From Marinomonas arctica (GTDB lineage: Bacteria; Pseudomonadota; Gammaproteobacteria; Pseudomonadales; Marinomonadaceae), in assembly GCF_003259225.1 (NCBI RefSeq), contig NZ_QHJF01000011.1, positions 1 through 64,000 of the forward strand: a stretch of 64,000 bases of DNA, written 5' to 3'. Both the position numbers and the translations under genes were made by a program. Under the pieces are notes generated by a model. It was not told where the DNA came from. It worked only from the letters and a program-made list of their open reading frames with translations, and searched no databases. Positions within the stretch are counted from its first letter, which is position 1, and each line of letters starts with the position of its first letter. Positions 36,030 through 49,328 of the stretch are shown here, piece after piece.

Positions 36030-37295
36030 TTATAGCAAGCCGAGGCGCTTTTTAAGCGTATACTTTTGAGCATCACTGAGTGGGGAAGCGTGACCAGATT
36101 TAATCAATCGATTCCACTGTTTCCAAGATTTAATGGCTTCACCTAGGTGGTCACGAGCTAGGTATTGTTGTATCTCCGCGCGGAAAGAGTTAGACACGGC
36201 CGCTGGATTGCCTTTTCCGAATGTACGTAGGCGAATGAGAGTACGTTTAAATTTATCGGCTAATTTTGAGTTATCTGTGCTGCTTGCCATCATGTTTGTT
36301 AAGCATTTTAAATAGTCGTAGTAGAACTCGACTTTTTCATTGCTGGTTTCTCGCGTTAGGCGAATGACCCGAGAGTAGGCTTGTTCAGCGCAGGGCCAAT
36401 CTTCTAGCCGCATGCTTATCTGTGCAAGTCTAAGGGCTCTTTCATATGATCGGGGCGACACTTCCAAGACACTTAGCATTGCGGACTGAGCGGCTTCTAA
36501 ATTGCCTAGACTTTCTTGTGCGTCAGCAAGTAGATCGTAAGCGGATAAAAAGTGTCGGCTTAAGCTGATGGTGTGTTCGAATTTTTTTATCGCGGCAGCG
36601 ATCGCGCCAAGTTTTAACTCGCACAAGGCGATACCAAAATGCGCCCAAGCCAAATTTTTGCTTTTTTGGGTGATCAGCATATAGTGGCTTTTTGCATCCT
36701 TGTAGCGACCCCGAGCATAGAGTGACTCACCAATGACTTTTAGGCATTGGCTCGCAAAATGCGGATATTGCACCATGACGGATTTGGCTTGAGATTCCAT
36801 GGTCTCAAAATCGTTTATTTTTCGTGCGTTGTTTATACTCTCAAAAGTTTTCTTTTGCGTTTCGACTCGCTCAAAGCGGCGAAAAAAAGCAGCGGGGGGA
36901 AAGGGTTTTACCAAATAACTATCAGGTTGATATTCCAACACACTGACCACACTTTCGTAAGCGGTGTCAGCGGTAATCATAATGAAAATAGTGGAGTGAT
37001 CTTGTGAATAGTTTTTACGAGAGGTTTCTAGAATTTGCTGACCATCTATGGTTCCACCTAAATTATAATCGGATAACACCACATCATAACGCTTTTCCAA
37101 AATGCGTTTTATAGCGGCTTGTCCTGAGGGTTCGACATCTATATCGGAGTAGCCCATCGATACCATTAAGGATTTGAGCATCAATCGCATTTCACCAAGA
37201 TCTTCAATGATCAAAACCCGTTTTTTTGCGGTCTCTGTTGATTTTCGCTGAATGTTATTGGTGTTTTCAACGCCTAGAGTGATTGCATCTGTCAA
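36030..37295 (-). CDS. Receiver-domain protein with TPR C-terminus, paralogue 1
   Basis: 421 residues from a TTG. The receiver domain (about 26-145) has acidic pair E31/D32, phosphorylatable D76 (LSDYNLGG), T108 and K130. The rest (about 165-390) is a helical tetratricopeptide array, with repeats such as AWAHFGIALCELKLGAIAAAIKKFE and AYDLLADAQESLGNLEAAQSAM. No DNA-binding, GGDEF, EAL or phosphatase domain is present, so output is probably by protein-protein contact. It resembles the next gene over its whole length. The partner kinase is unknown and none is encoded nearby. The TTG start has only a weak AGGT upstream. Confidence 0.85.
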   Translation of the reverse strand: MTDAITLGVENTNNIQRKSTETAKKRVLIIEDLGEMRLMLKSLMVSMGYSDIDVEPSGQAAIKRILEKRYDVVLSDYNLGGTIDGQQILETSRKNYSQDHSTIFIMITADTAYESVVSVLEYQPDSYLVKPFPPAAFFRRFERVETQKKTFESINNARKINDFETMESQAKSVMVQYPHFASQCLKVIGESLYARGRYKDAKSHYMLITQKSKNLAWAHFGIALCELKLGAIAAAIKKFEHTISLSRHFLSAYDLLADAQESLGNLEAAQSAMLSVLEVSPRSYERALRLAQISMRLEDWPCAEQAYSRVIRLTRETSNEKVEFYYDYLKCLTNMMASSTDNSKLADKFKRTLIRLRTFGKGNPAAVSNSFRAEIQQYLARDHLGEAIKSWKQWNRLIKSGHASPLSDAQKYTLKKRLGLL

Positions 37296-37620
37296 AGGGA
37301 CTACCTGACTCTAATAGGTTCTGGTTAAATCTAATTTTTCATTTATATCATTTGATAAATTAAAAAACCTATAGTTATCGTAAGTTATCGTTTAAATTTG
37401 TGATGATTTATTTCTTTTCCTTTTGAATCAACGTCTTAACTTATTCTTAAAATTGTTACAGAATGTAATTTTGTTTTTGTAAATCATTATTAAAAGTGAA
37501 TCAGGTAGCGTTACTTATGAAGCAAGTTGTCTCTACGAGACCGTTTATTTTTTTAATAAAATAGGCCGCTTTTGATTGACGATATCAAGTACATAAAAAC
37601 ATGTATTTTGCACTTGATAA
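37296..37620. other. Gap between the two receiver-TPR genes
   Basis: 325 AT-rich bases with no gene. A stem-loop just beyond the stop of paralogue 2 (TATCAAGT 37583-37590 with ACTTGATA 37612-37619, plus an inner TACAT/ATGTA pairing) lacks a T tract. The motif AGTTATCGT is directly repeated near 37373-37391, about 80-100 bases upstream of paralogue 1. The gap should hold its promoter. Confidence 0.45.
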
Positions 37621-38874
37621 TCAGAATAGTCCAAGTCTTCTTTTTAGCGTTAGTTCCTGTTCTTGTGTAATGGAGGAGGCCTTTCCAGATAAGATTAATT
37701 GTTTCCATTGCTTCCAAGATTTAATAGCGTCTTGTTTGCGTTCCCTATGAAGGTGTTGCTGAACTTCGACACGAAAAGAATTTGAGACAACAACAGGGTC
37801 GTCTTTCCCTAACAGGCGCAACCTTGTTAAAGAGCGCTGGAGTTTTTCGGCTGTCTGTAGTGAAGGCTCTTCAGTTTCTTGCAGTGCGAGAAGACATTTA
37901 AGATGTTCGTAATAGAATTCTATTTTTTCGTGCTGGGTATCTTTAGTTAAGCGAATCACTCTTGAATAGGCCTGCTCTGCCATTTGCCAATCTTTTAGTT
38001 TTACGCTGATTTTTCCTAGTTTTTTGGTTCTGGCTAGTGATCTAGGAGTGATTTCTAAACTTGCTAATATCGCCTTTTGTGCGCCTTTGAGATTGCTAAG
38101 TTGTTCGTGAGCATTAGCAAGAGTGTCATAAGCGGGTAAAAAATGGCGACTGATGCCGATGGTTTTTTCTAGACTTTTCACAGCAGACAGTGGCTGACCT
38201 AGAGACAGATCTGCTTGAGCAACCCCATAATGTGCCCAAGAGGCTTCTTGGTTATTTTTGAGTACGCGCATGTAGTGAATTTTAGCGGCTTTATAGTCTT
38301 TTCTAGAAAGCAAAGATTCGCCAATAGCCTTTAGACATAAGCTGATGTATTGAGGGTGTGTAGCCATAATCGCTTTGGCTTCGCTTTCCATGGCCTCAAA
38401 ATTCATTTTGCTTCGATGATCATCCATTGTTGAGAAGATGCTTTTTTGTAGCTTGATACGGCTTAGTCGACGATGCAAAGTGGCAGGAGTAAACGGTTTT
38501 ACCATGTAACTGTCGGGACGATGCTCGATTGCGCTGACCACGCTGTCATAACCCGTATCGGCGGTGATCATGATGAAAATAGTCGAGTGACCTAAGATGT
38601 TATTTTGTCGAGAAATTTCTAAAACTTGTTGGCCGTTAATTCGGCCACCAAGGTTGTAGTCAGACAATATGATGTCAAAATGTTTAGAAGCAATACGTTT
38701 CAGGGCACTTTGTCCTGAAGCCTCCACTTCTATGCTTGTATAGCCTAATGAAAGCATCATGGATCTGAGCATTAGACGCATTTCGTTCATATCTTCGATA
38801 ATCAATACTGATTTTTTACTGAGATCTTCCGTAATATTTCTATCTTTTTCCTGTGTGGTATGCACTTTTGTCAC
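37621..38874 (-). CDS. Receiver-domain protein with TPR C-terminus, paralogue 2
   Basis: 417 residues from a GTG at 38874, with AGGAAAA upstream. Same architecture as paralogue 1: a receiver domain (about 20-140; E27/D28, D72 in LSDYNLGGRINGQQ, K126) and TPR helices (about 160-385). Shared segments run throughout, for example GQQVLEIS, HSTIFIMITADT, ISRHFLPAYD and KRRLGLF at the very end. The pair therefore arose by tandem duplication with divergence. All phosphorylation residues are kept in both. An 11-bp perfect inverted repeat lies upstream. Function unknown. Confidence 0.85.
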   Translation of the reverse strand: MTKVHTTQEKDRNITEDLSKKSVLIIEDMNEMRLMLRSMMLSLGYTSIEVEASGQSALKRIASKHFDIILSDYNLGGRINGQQVLEISRQNNILGHSTIFIMITADTGYDSVVSAIEHRPDSYMVKPFTPATLHRRLSRIKLQKSIFSTMDDHRSKMNFEAMESEAKAIMATHPQYISLCLKAIGESLLSRKDYKAAKIHYMRVLKNNQEASWAHYGVAQADLSLGQPLSAVKSLEKTIGISRHFLPAYDTLANAHEQLSNLKGAQKAILASLEITPRSLARTKKLGKISVKLKDWQMAEQAYSRVIRLTKDTQHEKIEFYYEHLKCLLALQETEEPSLQTAEKLQRSLTRLRLLGKDDPVVVSNSFRVEVQQHLHRERKQDAIKSWKQWKQLILSGKASSITQEQELTLKRRLGLF

Positions 38875-39034: not shown

Positions 39035-39685
39035 CTAATGCACTAAATTTGCTGTAAGCACAAAAATATCCATGTAACCTTGCTCATCATTACGTGGCTT
39101 TATGGGCAGAGCGCTATGGAAAAACTTTCGGTCGTTTAGCACCACAAATTCTCCTCTGTCAAAATCGTGGCTGATCAGCGCAGGACTATTTTTTCCGAGA
39201 TGAACATGGATTTTGCCACCTTCGATATTATGACGTTGCATCACATAGATTCCTATGCGGTCAAAGCCATCTTGGTGAATGCCCTCTGGTGCGACCTCGG
39301 CACTTTTATGGTCGGCGAAGATTCGTAATTGGTGCACTTCGATAGGCGTGTTATCAGCCACGTCGGCCATCGTTTGGAAGTGTTCAAATAGTTCGAGGAA
39401 GGCAGGGTCGTTGACTATTTTATCGTCGATCTCTTCATAACGGCGCACAATATTGCCTTGGAAATGATTAATGCTTTCGTCTTGAACAAATGCCTGAGAC
39501 GGTAAACGATGAATCTTGTTTTGAGTGAGAGTAAAACGTGAATAGCGACGTAATCGAAACGCGCCATCGGCATAAGGGTTCGGTGGTAAATGATCAAAAG
39601 AAGGAATCAGGTGGTTAACACTGTCTGATGTTAGCTGACCTAGTTCAAGGTAAAAGGGGGTATTTTTTGTTTTGTTGGTGATCAT
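39035..39685 (-). CDS. 2-oxoglutarate/Fe(II) dioxygenase, amino-acid hydroxylase-like
   Basis: 216 residues. It resembles the 2OG-Fe_Oxy_2 family, which includes bacterial free L-isoleucine and related amino-acid hydroxylases. The metal ligands are H137-x-D139 in EGIHQDG and H190 in KFFHSALP. A family-typical QLRIFAD strand precedes them and GYMDIFVL follows. It is cytoplasmic, with no signal peptide. The substrate cannot be deduced; a free amino acid or small metabolite is inferred. It stands alone between the receiver-TPR genes and a divergent chemoreceptor. Start ATG at 39685. Confidence 0.82.
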   Translation of the reverse strand: MITNKTKNTPFYLELGQLTSDSVNHLIPSFDHLPPNPYADGAFRLRRYSRFTLTQNKIHRLPSQAFVQDESINHFQGNIVRRYEEIDDKIVNDPAFLELFEHFQTMADVADNTPIEVHQLRIFADHKSAEVAPEGIHQDGFDRIGIYVMQRHNIEGGKIHVHLGKNSPALISHDFDRGEFVVLNDRKFFHSALPIKPRNDEQGYMDIFVLTANLVH

Positions 39686-41556: not shown

Positions 41557-43596
41557 TTAACGTTTAGCAACAAAAACGCCACGATAAGCGCAGTGAAGAG
41601 TATTGTCTTTAATACTGAAGCCTGGCGTTTGGTAAACAACTTCTAGTGCATCACTTTCTGCTGGAAAAGGAACGCGAATAGGCGTATCGCTGCTGTAAAA
41701 GACGATCCAAAAATAACTAGAAAGGTCGGCAGACGTTAGCGTTAATGCGATAAAGTGACGCTCTTTATCGGCCCAATTTTCTGCGCTCATGGGTTCGCTG
41801 TGTTGGTTGAGCCAATGGATGTGATCAGATGAGGTGTGCTGATAAAGCGGGTCGTCTTCAAGACGAATTTCAGCCAATATTGGGTAGGTTTTGCGCAGTG
41901 TCATTAAGGTAGAAATGGTATGCTGCATGGCGTCTCTTGCAAGACGTGTTTCCTCATCTATATCCTGCCAAATTTGCCATGTCATGTCGTTGTCTTGGCA
42001 ATAGGCATTGTTGTTTCCTTGCTGAGTGTGGGAAAGCTCGTCCCCCCCTAAAATATGAGGCGTGCCTTGGCTTAGTAGCAGTGTCGCCATAAAGCAAAGT
42101 TGCTGGTTAAGGCGCTGTTGTTGAATATTTATGTCGTCAGTGTCGCCTTCTGTACCAAAGTTTTGGCTAAGATTGTCACTGTGCCCGTCACGGTTGTCTT
42201 CCATATTGGCAAGGTTATGGCGCTGGTGATAGGACACCAAGTCTTTCATGGTATAACCGTCATGATAGGTGATGTAGTTGACTGAAGTTAGAGCACTTTT
42301 TTGTCCTTTGTGAAACAGGTCTCTTGAACCTAAAAGGCGTGTCGCAAATTCAGGTACCATGCCTTTGTCACCGCGCCAGAAGCGACGCACCGTATCGCGG
42401 TATTGATCGTTACATTCGAGAAAACCTCTTGGAAATTGACCCACTTGATAGCCGTTTGGACCAATGTCCCAAGGCTCCATCACTAGGCAAGTTTCGCTTA
42501 AGATAGGGTCTTGAAGAATGGCTTGCAGTAAGGGCGCTTTAGGGGTGAAATCATGATCAGTGCGACCTAGATCAACCCCTAAATCAAAACGAAAGCCATC
42601 CACGCCCATCACTTCTACCCAATAACGCATGCTGTCGCAAATAAGACGAATGCTATTGGGATGGTAAGTGTCTATGCAGTTTCCGCATCCTGTGTAATTT
42701 AAATATTGGCCCGCTTGGTGACGATAATAGCGCGCATTGTCTAGACCTCGAAAGCAAACGCTAGAATGATCTAGCTCGCTTTCTGCTGTGTGGTTATAGA
42801 CAACGTCTAGAATGACTTCAAACCCTGCCGTTCTTAAGCCATCAACCATTTGTTGAAACTCCAAAACAGCGTCTTGTTTAGCGTAGGACGGTTCTGGTGC
42901 AAAAAAACTGATTGGATTGTAGCCCCAATAATTATTGAGCTCTAGCAACTCTAAATGGCGTTCGGTCATAAAACTGAAGCAAGGCATTAACTGAATGGTG
43001 GTAATGTTCAGGCTTTTTAAATGTTCAATACCCGCGGCGGAGATGACGCCAAGGTACGTGCCTTTTATTTCATCATCAATGGGGAGACTTTTGCTAAAAC
43101 CTTTGACATGCAGCTCGTATAAAGCACGGCTAGACGGGGTTACTTTCACCCTTGCCGGGCGGTTATGTTTGGCTGTCACGGTACGAACAATCGATTTCGG
43201 CACACAATAAGCCGAATTGACGCTGTTTAGCTGGCCTTCTTGGTTTATGGCTGATTGATCTTCATGCCAGACAAGTTTGTGACTGAGATCTCTTGCATAG
43301 GGATCTATTAGCAGTTTATGTTCGTTATAAAGCTGTTGCTGTTCTGGATTGAATTCGCCTTTAGCGCGTAAACCGTAATATTGGCCTTCTTTGAGGCCAA
43401 GCACTTCCATGTACCAAATGCCTTTATGTTTATTAATAAAAGGCAGCGGTTCTTGCTCCTTTCCATCTTGATCAAACAAACATAAATACAGTTGGCTGGC
43501 GTCTTCTGCGACCACGGCGAAATTAACACCGTCGTCGGTCACCGTCGCACCTAGAGGAAAACAGGCGCCATTGGAAGTCTGATGTGCTTGGTTCAT
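41557..43596 (-). CDS. glgX: Glycogen debranching enzyme GlgX (isoamylase family)
   Basis: 679 residues (E. coli GlgX 657). An N-terminal CBM48 domain (about 1-140) is followed by a GH13_11 catalytic barrel. Catalytic residues are the nucleophile Asp in DGFRFDLGVDLG, acid Glu in VMEPWDIGPNGY, and Asp in YITYHDGYTMKDLV. It removes alpha-1,6 branches from limit dextrins. It is last of three co-oriented genes, 46 bases after glgB, with AGAGG upstream. A TreX-type role is also possible. Confidence 0.95.
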   Translation of the reverse strand: MNQAHQTSNGACFPLGATVTDDGVNFAVVAEDASQLYLCLFDQDGKEQEPLPFINKHKGIWYMEVLGLKEGQYYGLRAKGEFNPEQQQLYNEHKLLIDPYARDLSHKLVWHEDQSAINQEGQLNSVNSAYCVPKSIVRTVTAKHNRPARVKVTPSSRALYELHVKGFSKSLPIDDEIKGTYLGVISAAGIEHLKSLNITTIQLMPCFSFMTERHLELLELNNYWGYNPISFFAPEPSYAKQDAVLEFQQMVDGLRTAGFEVILDVVYNHTAESELDHSSVCFRGLDNARYYRHQAGQYLNYTGCGNCIDTYHPNSIRLICDSMRYWVEVMGVDGFRFDLGVDLGRTDHDFTPKAPLLQAILQDPILSETCLVMEPWDIGPNGYQVGQFPRGFLECNDQYRDTVRRFWRGDKGMVPEFATRLLGSRDLFHKGQKSALTSVNYITYHDGYTMKDLVSYHQRHNLANMEDNRDGHSDNLSQNFGTEGDTDDINIQQQRLNQQLCFMATLLLSQGTPHILGGDELSHTQQGNNNAYCQDNDMTWQIWQDIDEETRLARDAMQHTISTLMTLRKTYPILAEIRLEDDPLYQHTSSDHIHWLNQHSEPMSAENWADKERHFIALTLTSADLSSYFWIVFYSSDTPIRVPFPAESDALEVVYQTPGFSIKDNTLHCAYRGVFVAKR

Positions 43597-43642: not shown

Positions 43643-45838
43643 TTAGGGTTTAGCTAGCCATTTTAACAAAACACCTGCCAGTGGTGGCACTTGCAGTTCA
43701 ATGCTTTGCTCGCGACCATGACTGACGATTGCTTGGGTCTGGTATGTTTTGACCTTGGCATAACCACTGCCTGTGTAGCTCACCTCATCCGTGTCCATGA
43801 CAATCTCATAACGGCCTGCTTTGGGCACGCCAATTCGATAGTTGCCATGTGGTGTTGGTGTAAAGTTAATGACCGCAATAACATGCTCGTCACTGTCTTT
43901 GGCTTTACGTGCAAAAACCAGAATGCTGTTGGCGCTGTCATCGTAACTGATCCATTCAAAGCCTTGGTAGGAATGATCAAACTGCAAACTTGGCTCATTT
44001 GTATAAAGATGATTCAAGTCTTTTGATAACGTTTGCTGGGCTTTGTGGTAGTCGGTCTCTAACAAATGCCAATCCAAAGAGCGTTCATGGCTCCATTCTT
44101 GGCCTTGGGCGAACTCATTGCCCATGAAGTTGAGTTTTTTGCCTGGATGAAAATACATGTAGGCCGAAAACGCACGTAAATTGGCAAATTTCTGCCAAGC
44201 ATCCCCTGGCATTTTAGTGATCATGGAACCTTTACCATGGACCACTTCATCGTGAGAAATCGGTAAGACAAATTGTTCATCAAAAGCATAAACCATACTA
44301 AAGCTGAGCTCGCCTTGATGATGTTGACGATAAATCGGATCGCGTTTGATATAAGCAAGCGAGTCGTTCATCCAGCCCATGTTCCATTTGAAACCAAAGC
44401 CTAAACCATTCATATAAGTCGGCTTGGACACCCCCGGAAAAGCGGTGGATTCTTCCGCGACGGTAAAACAACGGGGATGATTCAAATACACGGTTTCGTT
44501 CAAGCGACGCAAGAAATCGATGGCTTCGTAATTATGGTTGCCGCCGTCCTTGTTTGGAATCCATTCACCGTCTTCACGGGAGTAGTCTAGGTACAACATA
44601 GAGGCCACGGCATCCACACGAAGACCATCGATGTGGAATTCTTCTAACCAATATACCGCATTACTAATGAGGTAATTGACCACATGCTCTTTACCAAAGT
44701 CGTAAATAAGCGAGTTCCATTCAGGGTGCCAGCCTTTTTTGGGATCTGGGTATTCGTACTGCTTGGAGCCATCGAAATTGGCTAAACCATGGCTGTCGGC
44801 TGGAAAATGCGCGGGCACCCAATCCATAATCACGCCAATATTGGCTTGATGGAGCGCATCAACTAGGGCTTTGAATTCTTCTGGCGTGCCAAATCGTGAT
44901 GTGACCGCGTACAGGCCGACAGGTTGATAGCCCCAAGATCCATCGAATGGGTATTCTGTGATGGGCAATAATTCGACATGGGTATAGCCCATTTCAACCA
45001 TATAGGGAACCAGCTGATCTTTGATTTCCAAATACGTCAATGGCTGGTTATCCGCTTTACGACGCCATGAACCAATGTGTAGTTCATAAATGCTCATGGG
45101 CTGTTCGTAGATGTCTTCGATAGGCCGCTTAACCCAAGCGTCGTCTTGCCACTGGTGCTTGTTATCAAAACAGGTCACGCTGGCAAAAGAGGGGTATTGC
45201 TCAATACGTTGGGCATAAGGATCGCTGCGATGGGGCAAAATATCACCGGCGTTAGAGCGGATTTCAAACTTATAACGCGCCCCATGATTAACGTCGGGAA
45301 TGAATAGACGCCATATGCCGTCACCATTACTAGACATTGGATGAATGCGACCGTCCCAGGCATTAAAGTCACCAACTACAGACACGGAACGTGCTGCAGG
45401 GGCGTAAACCGCAAAGCGTGTACCTTGAATAGTGAGTTGATCGTTGACTTTTGCATTGGCCCGAATGGCGCCTTGGCTTTTGTAAAGATTCGCTTGGTGA
45501 TGATCAGGGTCTACAAAGGTCGTGTTAGGAAACTGGTACGGATCGACCAGCGTATAGGTACTTTTGTCTTTGTAAGTGATTTCGAGACGATAATGAAAGC
45601 GCGTTTTTTCTTTTGGCCATGCGGCGTGAAACAAGCCTTTGTCTTCTGTTTCAGTCATTGTCGCCAACTCTTGGTCTGAGTCTATGGCCAATACGCGAAC
45701 AGAAATCGCTTCTGGTTGCCACACAAGCAGTGACAAGCCTTTTTTAGAAGGGGATGATTGAAGTCCTAAACAGCCAAATGGGTCTGAACAGCGAGTGTTC
45801 AATACATCGTTAATTAGGGCATTTTTTATTAAATCCAT
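43643..45838 (-). CDS. glgB: 1,4-alpha-glucan branching enzyme GlgB
   Basis: 731 residues (E. coli 728). An N1 domain and CBM48 (about 1-225) precede the GH13_9 barrel. Catalytic residues: Asp in GLRVDAVASMLYLDYSRE, Glu in TVAEESTAFPGV, Asp in ISHDEVVHGKGSM. It transfers alpha-1,4 chains to alpha-1,6 positions in glycogen. The ATG at 45838 has GGAGAAG upstream. It sits 26 bases after the phosphorylase-kinase-like gene and before glgX, with no glgC, glgA or glgP in view, so the pathway is completed elsewhere. Confidence 0.97.
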   Translation of the reverse strand: MDLIKNALINDVLNTRCSDPFGCLGLQSSPSKKGLSLLVWQPEAISVRVLAIDSDQELATMTETEDKGLFHAAWPKEKTRFHYRLEITYKDKSTYTLVDPYQFPNTTFVDPDHHQANLYKSQGAIRANAKVNDQLTIQGTRFAVYAPAARSVSVVGDFNAWDGRIHPMSSNGDGIWRLFIPDVNHGARYKFEIRSNAGDILPHRSDPYAQRIEQYPSFASVTCFDNKHQWQDDAWVKRPIEDIYEQPMSIYELHIGSWRRKADNQPLTYLEIKDQLVPYMVEMGYTHVELLPITEYPFDGSWGYQPVGLYAVTSRFGTPEEFKALVDALHQANIGVIMDWVPAHFPADSHGLANFDGSKQYEYPDPKKGWHPEWNSLIYDFGKEHVVNYLISNAVYWLEEFHIDGLRVDAVASMLYLDYSREDGEWIPNKDGGNHNYEAIDFLRRLNETVYLNHPRCFTVAEESTAFPGVSKPTYMNGLGFGFKWNMGWMNDSLAYIKRDPIYRQHHQGELSFSMVYAFDEQFVLPISHDEVVHGKGSMITKMPGDAWQKFANLRAFSAYMYFHPGKKLNFMGNEFAQGQEWSHERSLDWHLLETDYHKAQQTLSKDLNHLYTNEPSLQFDHSYQGFEWISYDDSANSILVFARKAKDSDEHVIAVINFTPTPHGNYRIGVPKAGRYEIVMDTDEVSYTGSGYAKVKTYQTQAIVSHGREQSIELQVPPLAGVLLKWLAKP

Positions 45839-45864: not shown

Positions 45865-48800
45865 TTAACTCAATGAGTGTTGGTGCTGATGACTGTGAAG
45901 TTTGCTCACGGCCCAACGCAAATATTGATTGACTTTATTTGGTGTTATTTGTGCGAAATCATCCAATGCAGCTTCAGCCCAGTTATCTTCCACATGTTCG
46001 GCTTGGTGCTGTCTAGCATGATCTAGTGCTGCTTTTGAGACTAAAACAGGTAGATTGATTTCTTGTTCAAACTTACAGTTTTTATGTTGTTTACAGAACT
46101 GTATGAAAGCATATAAGCCTTCAAAAATAAGACTCTTATACCAACTTGGATGAATGTCCGACGTTAAGGTTTCAATCAGCAATGCGAAGGTGTCTTCTCC
46201 TGGCGTCATAGAGCTGAGTGCGCGTTTACAATCGAGAGCGGTGTTGCTTTGTAAGTCACCAAATACAATGGTGTTTGCGTGACTTAAACTGTCCCAAAGC
46301 TGCAGTAGCATAGATTCTGGCAGCTTGGTGATCATACCCTGCTCAGAACGCCAGTCAAACCAGTCCACATCTTTCATCTTACTTTGCGCGTCGGTACTGT
46401 TGTGGTAGCGCATGTTGTTTGCCACGTGAGCAAATTCGTCATGCTTTTGTTGTAACACTTGTTTGAGGGCTTCGTAAAGCTTGCTTGGCGACACTCTGGA
46501 TAAGGTTTCAAAAACGGGAGCATCGTCCTCGGGATCAAATTGACGAGCACATAACATCGCTAAGTTGTGAATTCGTATGGTACGAACGCCAGAGAAAAAC
46601 TCAGGATGCACCTTAATCAGAGTCCCTGCAATGGCGATTAGCTCATGACAAATCACCAGACCAATCGGCGAGGATGACACACTTCTCAACATATCGAGAA
46701 TCACGTCCTGATGCAACGGAGTGCTGATATCGATCTCGGTTTCAGGGGTTTCACCAATAACCAGCAAACGCTGACGAACCGTGATATCGGCAATATAGGT
46801 AGCGAGATCCGTTGAAGGCTTTAAAATCAAGGAATACAGTTGTCGAGCACTGTGCCAGTTCTCAGAAAGTAAGGCTTGCAGATACACACTGTTCAACACC
46901 TTATAGGCGGTGACGGCCGGAGTTGAATTGGGGATGGTGTTCATTAATGCGCGACGACTGCCTAGCTCGATCAAGCAGTCGATGGCTTCGTGAATGTCTG
47001 GCTGTGCGGTGAAGCGACTCAGTAAGGTGTTCGTTTCTGCTGTTTTGATCGATTGCGGATCATAAGCTTTTGGCTTAGCGGATAATGGCCAAGGAGTGTC
47101 GTGAATGGGCAGTTTTGCACCTAGCTGGTTATGGTCCACAGCATTGATCATGATGGTGCGACGGTTACCCGATTTGAATGCATTTTTAGCCGATTGCGGA
47201 ATAACACGAAATTCTTCGTGTTCGCGTTTCTGTAACAAGCGAATGAATTCAAATAATTCATCACTGCCTTTCATGTCACTGATGGCTTCGTCAATCAGTA
47301 TGCTAAAAACCGCATTGGCTTGGTAATACCAATGGTCAGCAATGTTTTTTAATTCGTTACGAATATGAGCTTGGAACAACGCTGGATCGATTTTTCGATA
47401 ATCTTTGTCTTCGTTCTGAATCCAGGACAAACACAAATAGCTTTCATTGTTGATACTGAATGCTTGCGACGTTGCTAAGCTGTTTAATGCGCGGTTTGGC
47501 CGTCCGGTTAAGCCTAACGTTTCTGAGGCACCTAAATGTCGATAAGTAGCCACTAACTGCTCGGCGCTGATGGCTTTAATAGGCAGAATATCATCGAGCG
47601 TTTGGCATAGGCAGCCAGCATCAAGCAGTTTCTGTTTCACTTTGTCGTTTTGTGCCAAGATAACCATGGAAGTAGTGGCCTTGTTTGGCTTGTACTGGAC
47701 ACGATGTAAGCCTAGTGGGTCAAGATCATCTGTTTTAATGAGTTCTTCATCGAGCATTTTCCCCACTAAAAAGAGACTCTGTGCCCACACTAAAGGGAGG
47801 TTATCATTGGGTACACGTTTTTGTGAACCTGGTTTTTCCTTTTCAGCCAGAATACTTTCTTGTGGTACATAATAGAGTTCAGGGAGCAACATTTGCCCAT
47901 CTTTTTCGACCATCAAGGATTCGAGTTTGTGGCGATAAAAGTTGGCGCTTTCCCAATCACGAGCAAATAAACGATCGATATAAAGGTAAGTGAAAAACAA
48001 TGGCCATTCGGACTCAATGTGTTCGAAATTAATCAGTTCGTTGTATTCATAGTATATTCGACTTTGATCTTCTAATTCCGATTGATGCCCATCTAATAAG
48101 AAGCGTTTACAGCCATATTCTCCGCCCAGTTTATTGATGATTTCTTTGCGAGTGCGCCTGACAAGTTTTTCATCGTTAACGGCAAACGCAGGAAAACCTA
48201 TGATACTTAGGATTGCGCTGTCGACTTCTTTAGAACGTGATTCTTTAGGTAGTAGGGATTGCAATACAGAGCCTGCGCGGGCAACCGCATCGGCAAAAGA
48301 GTGCACCACCGCCCATTCAGGACCGTCCTCACCAAATAGATTTAGCCCATCCATGGCTTCCATGGCCGCCTTTGCCATGCCCACTGAGCTGGCATTAATT
48401 TCAGCTTTGCCATTATTGACCTTATTGCCGCGTTCCCAAATCCCGTAATCGGGTGTGCGATAGGTGCGTGAAATATAGTAAATGAGATTTTGGATGAAAT
48501 TAAATTCGTCGCGAGAAAAGATTAACTTACTGCCGGCTTTGGTCATTTGCGCCAGCATTAATAAATAAAAGCTGGTGGCATCAATTTGCAAATGTCCCCA
48601 AGCATCATCCGCCACGGCTTCTAAGCCTGTTTTAGTGTCGTATTTCGCGTGCAAGGCGTCTTTAGGATCTAGGCTGTGCTTAAAGGCTTCCACTTTGTGG
48701 GATTGACGCATCATGGCGAAAAGTAGACCGCGCATCATTTTTATACAGGCAAATTCAAGCTCGTTAGCACGTTTTTGCGGGTTAGAAGCGCGCTTGTACG

Positions 48801-48990
48801 CTAAATGTAATGCCCATACCGCCTGAATGCTGTAGACGTTATCGCGTACCCAGGCGTCGGTATAATTACCGTGATTGTTAATGCTCGTGCTGGCAGGGAA
48901 GAGTCCAGTAACTGGGTGCTGACGGGATAAAATTACCGCTTGAATATGTTGATAAAGGGAATCTAGCTTATCTTGTGTATCAGACGCCAT
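45865..48990 (-). CDS. Phosphorylase kinase alpha/beta-like protein with GH15 domain
   Basis: 1041 residues. The N-terminal half matches the GH15-like domain of eukaryotic phosphorylase kinase alpha and beta subunits nearly segment for segment: TDAWVRDNVYSI (44-55), KMMRGLLFAMMRQ, LHAKYDTKTG, WGHLQIDATSFYLLMLAQMT (131-150), DYGIWERGNK (181-190, candidate acid E186), NASSVGMAKAAMEA. Similarity continues into FPAFAV, EWPLFFTYLY, LPELY and a helical C-terminal region. The calmodulin-binding and prenylation tails of the animal protein are absent. It may hydrolyse glucans or act as a regulatory scaffold. First gene of the glg cluster. Confidence 0.88.
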   Translation of the reverse strand: MASDTQDKLDSLYQHIQAVILSRQHPVTGLFPASTSINNHGNYTDAWVRDNVYSIQAVWALHLAYKRASNPQKRANELEFACIKMMRGLLFAMMRQSHKVEAFKHSLDPKDALHAKYDTKTGLEAVADDAWGHLQIDATSFYLLMLAQMTKAGSKLIFSRDEFNFIQNLIYYISRTYRTPDYGIWERGNKVNNGKAEINASSVGMAKAAMEAMDGLNLFGEDGPEWAVVHSFADAVARAGSVLQSLLPKESRSKEVDSAILSIIGFPAFAVNDEKLVRRTRKEIINKLGGEYGCKRFLLDGHQSELEDQSRIYYEYNELINFEHIESEWPLFFTYLYIDRLFARDWESANFYRHKLESLMVEKDGQMLLPELYYVPQESILAEKEKPGSQKRVPNDNLPLVWAQSLFLVGKMLDEELIKTDDLDPLGLHRVQYKPNKATTSMVILAQNDKVKQKLLDAGCLCQTLDDILPIKAISAEQLVATYRHLGASETLGLTGRPNRALNSLATSQAFSINNESYLCLSWIQNEDKDYRKIDPALFQAHIRNELKNIADHWYYQANAVFSILIDEAISDMKGSDELFEFIRLLQKREHEEFRVIPQSAKNAFKSGNRRTIMINAVDHNQLGAKLPIHDTPWPLSAKPKAYDPQSIKTAETNTLLSRFTAQPDIHEAIDCLIELGSRRALMNTIPNSTPAVTAYKVLNSVYLQALLSENWHSARQLYSLILKPSTDLATYIADITVRQRLLVIGETPETEIDISTPLHQDVILDMLRSVSSSPIGLVICHELIAIAGTLIKVHPEFFSGVRTIRIHNLAMLCARQFDPEDDAPVFETLSRVSPSKLYEALKQVLQQKHDEFAHVANNMRYHNSTDAQSKMKDVDWFDWRSEQGMITKLPESMLLQLWDSLSHANTIVFGDLQSNTALDCKRALSSMTPGEDTFALLIETLTSDIHPSWYKSLIFEGLYAFIQFCKQHKNCKFEQEINLPVLVSKAALDHARQHQAEHVEDNWAEAALDDFAQITPNKVNQYLRWAVSKLHSHQHQHSLS

Positions 48991-49328
48991 GTTTGATCCT
49001 TTGTGTTCGAGACTTGTTGCTTAATGTTTACCTTGGTTTTGATTTACCTGTAAAACCACTATACCCAAACATAATGGGACTCACCAATAAGTTAAAGTAG
49101 TAAAGGCTCTTCTTTTTCACTTAATTTTTGAAAATACGCTTTTTTGCATAAAATCAGACGCCTATGCACAAAATCAGAGCATGTATTAACGATTAAGTTT
49201 AGTTTAAGAGCGTTTTTCGCTGTTATTTGATAAACAGATACACGGCTGGATTGGCTTTTTGAAAACCTAAAAATCGTGCTTTTGCCTTTGCATGATTTTT
49301 AGGCTAACGGGTTAAAGAGCGGAGAAAA
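48991..49328. other. Gap upstream of the glycogen cluster
   Basis: 338 bases without a gene. It should contain the cluster promoter near 49000-49150. It also holds the hairpin listed separately at 49262-49303. No operator was recognised. Confidence 0.45.
49262..49303 (-). terminator. Probable terminator of the chemoreceptor gene at 49.3-50.9 kb
   Basis: A perfect 10-bp stem CCTAAAAATC/GATTTTTAGG (49266-49275 with 49294-49303), with a short inner TGC/GCA pairing, is followed on the minus strand by four T residues. It lies 26 bases after the stop. Confidence 0.6.

Follow-up and report, generated by a model that had tools for sequence, protein, structure and literature searches.

That phosphorylase kinase (PhK) contains GH15-like domains was recognized in 2003 (Pallen; cited by PMC10978961 and by PMC2639635). 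In the cryo-EM structure of human PhK, domain D1 superimposes on glycosidase 5Z3F and residues E185 and E371 of the alpha subunit are named as the catalytic pair, yet human alpha displays no activity toward maltose, isomaltose or glycogen. The purpose of these domains is still said to need investigation, as alpha looks catalytically intact and its activity has not been found (PMC10978961). A GH15 enzyme takes part in glycogen catabolism in the archaeon Sulfolobus acidocaldarius: a strain mutated in its GH15 glucoamylase behaves in glycogen assays like one impaired in catabolism (PMC11046441, a review). In methanotrophs, glucokinase has been credited with the reuse of free glucose from glycogen (PMC6406325). 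It is also already known that the Pfam model of the PhK C-terminal domain, KPBB_C, matches bacteria.

One such bacterial relative is encoded in Marinomonas arctica, within the window analyzed here, a stretch of 64,000 nucleotides. The open reading frame occupies 45865..48990 on the minus strand, reading from 48990 to 45865, and its 1041-residue product comprises a GH15 domain followed by a region resembling PhK D2-D5. D1, a GH15-type (alpha/alpha)6 domain, covers residues 1-433 (47692..48990, minus strand) according to Pfam and a structural model of D1. The Pfam Glyco_hydro_15 profile matches residues 8-523 (E 5.1e-69) at 234 bits, against a curated cut-off of 22, and the phosphorylase b kinase C-terminal domain KPBB_C (PF19292) matches residues 826-1037 (45880..46515, minus strand; E 4.3e-29). 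Pfam finds no N-terminal beta-sandwich or starch-binding domain in the protein. The gene is the sole GH15 gene of the source genome, and M. rhodophyticola holds a 99% protein match. The protein is likely an active intracellular GH15 exo-alpha-glucosidase (glucoamylase) acting on glycogen.

The relationship to PhK extends over the whole length of the protein. A phmmer search of the PDB returned the two large human PhK subunits, alpha at E 2.6e-157 and beta at E 9.1e-138, and no further entry at E<=1, so that no PDB glucoamylase was reached by sequence. A profile built from 20 bacterial homologs aligns with human alpha at 1037 bits, over residues 6-1168 split into three colinear segments, and with beta at 868 bits, over residues 46-1078. 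Over D1, the Marinomonas protein shares 52.8% identity with human alpha and 43.7% with beta. Identity to alpha rises to as much as 60% in the D1 domains of other bacteria (locus L050), above the 47.6% that alpha and beta share with each other. The original prediction of a full-length, colinear PhK alpha/beta homolog is thus borne out by phmmer, by the Pfam GH15 and KPBB_C matches and by the 20-sequence profile, and its coordinates and motifs (DAWVRDNVYSI, MRGLL, LHAKY, WGHLQ-DATS and NASSVGMAKAA, all within the 1041 residues) were correct. The layout is that of the PhK family, with a GH15-like D1 followed by KPBB_C and colinearity throughout. Like PHKA and PHKB (PF00723 plus PF19292), the bacterial form is colinear over its whole length, and its catalytic pair resembles that of alpha. 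Unlike them, it is a single gene, with no gene for the PhK gamma or calmodulin delta partners in its neighborhood. The C-terminal CaaX farnesylation motif present in the human subunits is also missing, the protein ending in ...HSHQHQHSLS; because of this absence, it is best described as a PhK-family homolog and not as a PhK subunit of the animal kind. A further difference is genomic, the bacterial gene being linked to glg genes in Marinomonas and to glk elsewhere.

In the window, the PhK-like gene lies directly upstream of glgB, encoding 1,4-alpha-glucan branching enzyme (43643..45838; NF003811, 945 bits), and glgX, encoding glycogen debranching enzyme (41557..43596; TIGR02100, 746 bits). All three genes are on the minus strand, with gaps of 26 bp between the PhK-like gene and glgB and 46 bp between glgB and glgX. 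This placement, already described in the original prediction, recurs in 27/27 named Marinomonas loci examined, and because of that conservation the gene order is not attributable to chance. The operon probably starts at the PhK-like gene, since the nearest upstream gene, encoding an MCP, is separated from it by a 338-bp intergenic region (48991..49328, minus strand). Promoter prediction over these 338 bp gave no standout call. An inverted repeat, CCTAAAAATC/GATTTTTAGG, was seen by eye at 49266-49303 of the window (minus strand), with an 18-nt loop and followed by T's; it could be a terminator of the upstream MCP gene, leaving space for a promoter belonging to the operon itself.

The active site of D1 is conserved among the bacterial homologs. 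By alignment, E186 (codon at 48433..48435, minus strand) is the predicted general acid and corresponds to E185 of human alpha, and E371 (codon at 47878..47880, minus strand) is the predicted general base and corresponds to alpha E371 and beta K408 (human residues from PMC10978961). These two glutamates and the 21 further D1 positions checked around the active site, 23 in total, are identical in 31/31 bacterial homologs whose overall identity reaches down to ~35%. The choice of E186 as a catalytic residue is supported accordingly, and loss of the catalytic carboxylates, set beforehand as the observation that would count against the idea, did not occur, both being kept at the sequence level. In human beta, the base is replaced by a lysine and the equivalents of W47, R49 and W131 are also lost. 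The intact pair does not by itself prove activity, because human alpha has it and is inactive in assays. The wider comparison of D1 may bear on this: of 111 positions invariant across the 31 bacteria, 97 are retained in alpha and 80 in beta. Among the 14 that differ in alpha are T35, H40, G41, Y43, E250, H302, Q303, N395 and N397, some of the changes sitting in an N-terminal loop that is shortened in human alpha. The bacterial form thus differs from human alpha in retaining E250, H302, Q303 and the STxxxxHGxY loop residues, and the changes at E250, H302 and Q303 and in part of the N-terminal loop are candidate reasons, drawn from alignment, for the missing activity of alpha.

The D1 model (pLDDT 60.5, pTM 0.69) has a usable fold, with loops below 50 pLDDT and low confidence around the active site. 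Its best structural matches are to PhK (Z 27-30; alpha D1 Z 30.4), followed by glycosidase 5Z3A-E (Z 20) and bacterial glucoamylase 1LF6 (Z 19.3); dextran dextrinase, glucodextranase and fungal glucoamylases also appear among the matches. An (alpha/alpha)6 barrel matching GH15 enzymes at Z 15-20 is therefore present in a model of moderate confidence. The protein shares the GH15 Pfam domain, the (alpha/alpha)6 fold and the paired glutamates with GH15 glucoamylases (Thermoanaerobacterium-type 1LF6, Aspergillus 1GAI, glycosidase 5Z3A-E) and with glucodextranase 1UG9, but differs from them in having ~600 extra C-terminal residues, common only with PhK. A full-length AlphaFold model built from 19 sequences (pLDDT 63, pTM 0.41) was set aside, being poor at the active site and having PhK matches that lean on sequence.

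Outside Marinomonas, the gene keeps different company. A glucokinase gene (PF02685) lies two or fewer genes from the PhK-like gene in 13/26 non-Marinomonas genomes (25 searched genomes and a Sulfuricurvum MAG), representing 7/13 families; for the families, a rough binomial in which every genome is assumed to hold 3500 genes yields 1e-14. Domains of these neighbors were confirmed on examples, and glucokinase positions were also mapped genome-wide. Glucokinase is directly downstream of the PhK-like gene in loci L028, L044, L049, L050, L051, L053 and L054. In L076-L079 it is upstream, in the order edd-glk-eda-PhK or glk-eda-PhK, while in L080 it immediately precedes the PhK-like gene and in L056 it is divergent. 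A MalQ-type gene follows the PhK-like gene in L077, L079 and L080 (Pfam-confirmed for L077), and a MalK-like ATPase is also downstream in L077 and L079. A single frozen glk-PhK event is unlikely because the arrangements differ, yet several of them share ancestry in the tree. The remaining dozen or so non-Marinomonas genomes have no glucokinase neighbor, and in two of these (L052 and L055) the contig ends there. A glucokinase neighbor fits an enzyme that releases free glucose, because free glucose needs glucokinase and the product of phosphorolysis does not.

Relatives of the protein are scattered across bacteria. Genomes with PF19292 number 14/369 in the class, 18/245 in the order and 8/398 in the phylum, each count including the source genome. 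PhK-like relatives occur in Pseudomonadota and Campylobacterota, one of them in the Sulfuricurvum MAG, and Synechococcus elongatus, a control genome, is positive for PF19292. The viral contigs searched held no relative, and the plasmids searched gave a single weak match of 24%. In Marinomonas itself, the gene is present in 41/42 genomes, all 41 of which carry glycogen synthase and glucokinase, the latter being found in 42/42. Phosphorylase is distributed differently: 14 of the 42 genomes have a full-length canonical enzyme, two a divergent one only, and 26 none. PF00343, a profile that should cover MalP-type enzymes too, is missing from 25/41 PhK-positive genomes, several of which are assembled as one contig (G431, G462, G490, G969 and G976). 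The only Marinomonas genome without the PhK-like gene (G963) is also without glycogen synthase and phosphorylase, and the source genome does carry GlgP. These 25 genomes, capable of making glycogen, keep the PhK-like gene without a phosphorylase, a pattern expected of a glycogen-degrading protein and not of a phosphorylase regulator. A similar case is locus L092, with a glgB-glgX-malQ-PhK cluster in a genome without phosphorylase; this cluster and the MalQ-type genes of L077, L079 and L080 count toward the glycogen glucoamylase reading.

From the homology, the conserved catalytic pair, the gene neighborhood and the co-occurrence observed, we infer an activity, a substrate and a product. GlgX would take off branches, and the PhK-like protein would hydrolyze glycogen or derived maltodextrins to free glucose, which glucokinase, encoded elsewhere in Marinomonas and adjoining in many other bacteria, would convert to glucose-6-phosphate. 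Such hydrolysis would be an alternative or a supplement to phosphorolysis by GlgP. Catalysis would follow an inverting mechanism with E186 as general acid and E371 as general base, and the -1 subsite likely includes W47, R49, D50, W131 and R296. A fold like that of animal PhK alpha/beta is probable for the D2-D5 region, which may serve in homo-oligomer formation or glycogen binding. The S. acidocaldarius route offers the parallel of a GH15 enzyme in glycogen catabolism, although it is archaeal, has another gene setting and is not described as PhK-like (PMC11046441).

An active GH15 hydrolase could instead work on imported maltodextrin, isomalto-oligosaccharide or trehalose and not on stored glycogen. 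Glucodextranase and dextran dextrinase among the fold matches of D1 favor this, as do a weak match to the NCBIfam trehalase TreH1 (33 bits, the cut-off being 820) and the operons of family f188, which contain malQ and a MalK-like ATPase. We nonetheless consider such a substrate unlikely, given that the Marinomonas partners are glgB and glgX and that the gene follows glycogen synthase both in presence (41/41) and in absence (1/1). Counting against the glucoamylase reading, the source genome has GlgP and also three full-length GH13 alpha-glucosidase-like genes, two of them adjoining sugar ABC transporter genes, and enzymes of this kind could hydrolyze maltodextrins in Marinomonas.

The original prediction had offered glucoamylase and regulatory scaffold as two possible roles; the first is well supported by the invariant pair, the glk neighbors and the phosphorylase-free genomes, and the second is disfavored. 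A scaffold would perform no chemistry of its own but would bind glycogen and regulate phosphorylase or some other glg enzyme, possibly with the help of a protein kinase. Colinearity with PhK alpha/beta through the D4/D5 region agrees with this, as does human alpha with its intact pair and undetected activity. In the source genome, outside the window (G000:C40, L075 10200-14536), a gene for a PP2C-phosphatase/Ser-Thr-kinase fusion is followed, after 92 bp and on the same strand, by glgP. However, this pairing is found in just 3/13 Marinomonas genomes with canonical glgP examined, and the kinase-phosphorylase link was dropped as probably incidental; no kinase is consistently linked. The absence of phosphorylase from most PhK-positive Marinomonas genomes also stands against a scaffold, which would have no need of a catalytic pair and substrate-site residues invariant in 31 sequences or of a glk neighbor, and this role is accordingly regarded as improbable. 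That a eukaryotic gene was recently captured and its sequence kept without a settled bacterial role is very improbable, since the high D1 identity to human alpha is outweighed by the diversity of the bacterial sequences, all separated from human alpha and beta by a branch with 99/96 support, by their spread over Pseudomonadota, Campylobacterota and S. elongatus (a Pfam match), and by a genus-wide operon in Marinomonas.

The glycogen glucoamylase reading has consequences for the descent of PhK. In a D1-D2 tree, human alpha and beta, the two eukaryotic sequences included, pair (99/96) opposite all bacteria, with a shorter branch for alpha and a long one for beta; the tree was left unrooted, as the GH15 enzymes of the PDB are too distant for sequence search to supply an outgroup. 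Such a topology is compatible with a gene duplication on the eukaryotic side and stronger decay of beta, and with either direction of descent. The ancestral role suggested by the original prediction is therefore plausible only, in a tree without a root and with two eukaryotic sequences. The balance is about even for a wider proposal, in which an intracellular glycogen glucoamylase of bacterial type gave rise to the large subunits of animal PhK, the enzyme still stands in for glycogen phosphorylase in bacteria, and animal alpha became a pseudoenzyme through substrate-site losses outside the pair (for instance at E250, H302, Q303 and the N-terminal loop).

If the glucoamylase reading is true, the origin of an animal regulator would be explained. 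It may also answer how glycogen is broken down in some gammaproteobacteria that synthesize glycogen without GlgP, a gap raised in PMC4301808. Neither a bacterial PhK alpha/beta homolog nor its glucokinase linkage came up in a literature search with most subscription papers outside its reach; within the literature searched, that glucokinase/Entner-Doudoroff linkage is new, as are the Marinomonas genomes free of phosphorylase and the bacterial invariants lost by human alpha. The question of the PhK GH15 domains becomes directly testable with a bacterial homolog that is encoded by a single gene, has a D1 identity of 53-60% and is linked to genes for glycogen and glucokinase.

Several smaller observations accompany these loci. 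In M. pontica (L025 8001-10935), the PhK-like ORF is in pieces, and the glgB and glgX ORFs are fragmented in M. rhodophyticola (L002) and M. pontica, reflecting either decay or assembly errors. In L044 (12514-15813), a gene for a 1099-residue Ser/Thr kinase-AAA-TPR protein is divergent from the PhK-like gene, and it was not seen beside that gene elsewhere. At 36030-38874 of the window (minus strand), two adjoining genes of 421 and 417 aa are apparent paralogs encoding a response-regulator receiver plus TPR protein. A 2OG-Fe dioxygenase gene (PF10014) lies at 39035-39685 on the glg strand (minus), with an opposite-strand MCP gene between it and glgX, and in L026 a similar-looking dioxygenase gene immediately follows glgX.
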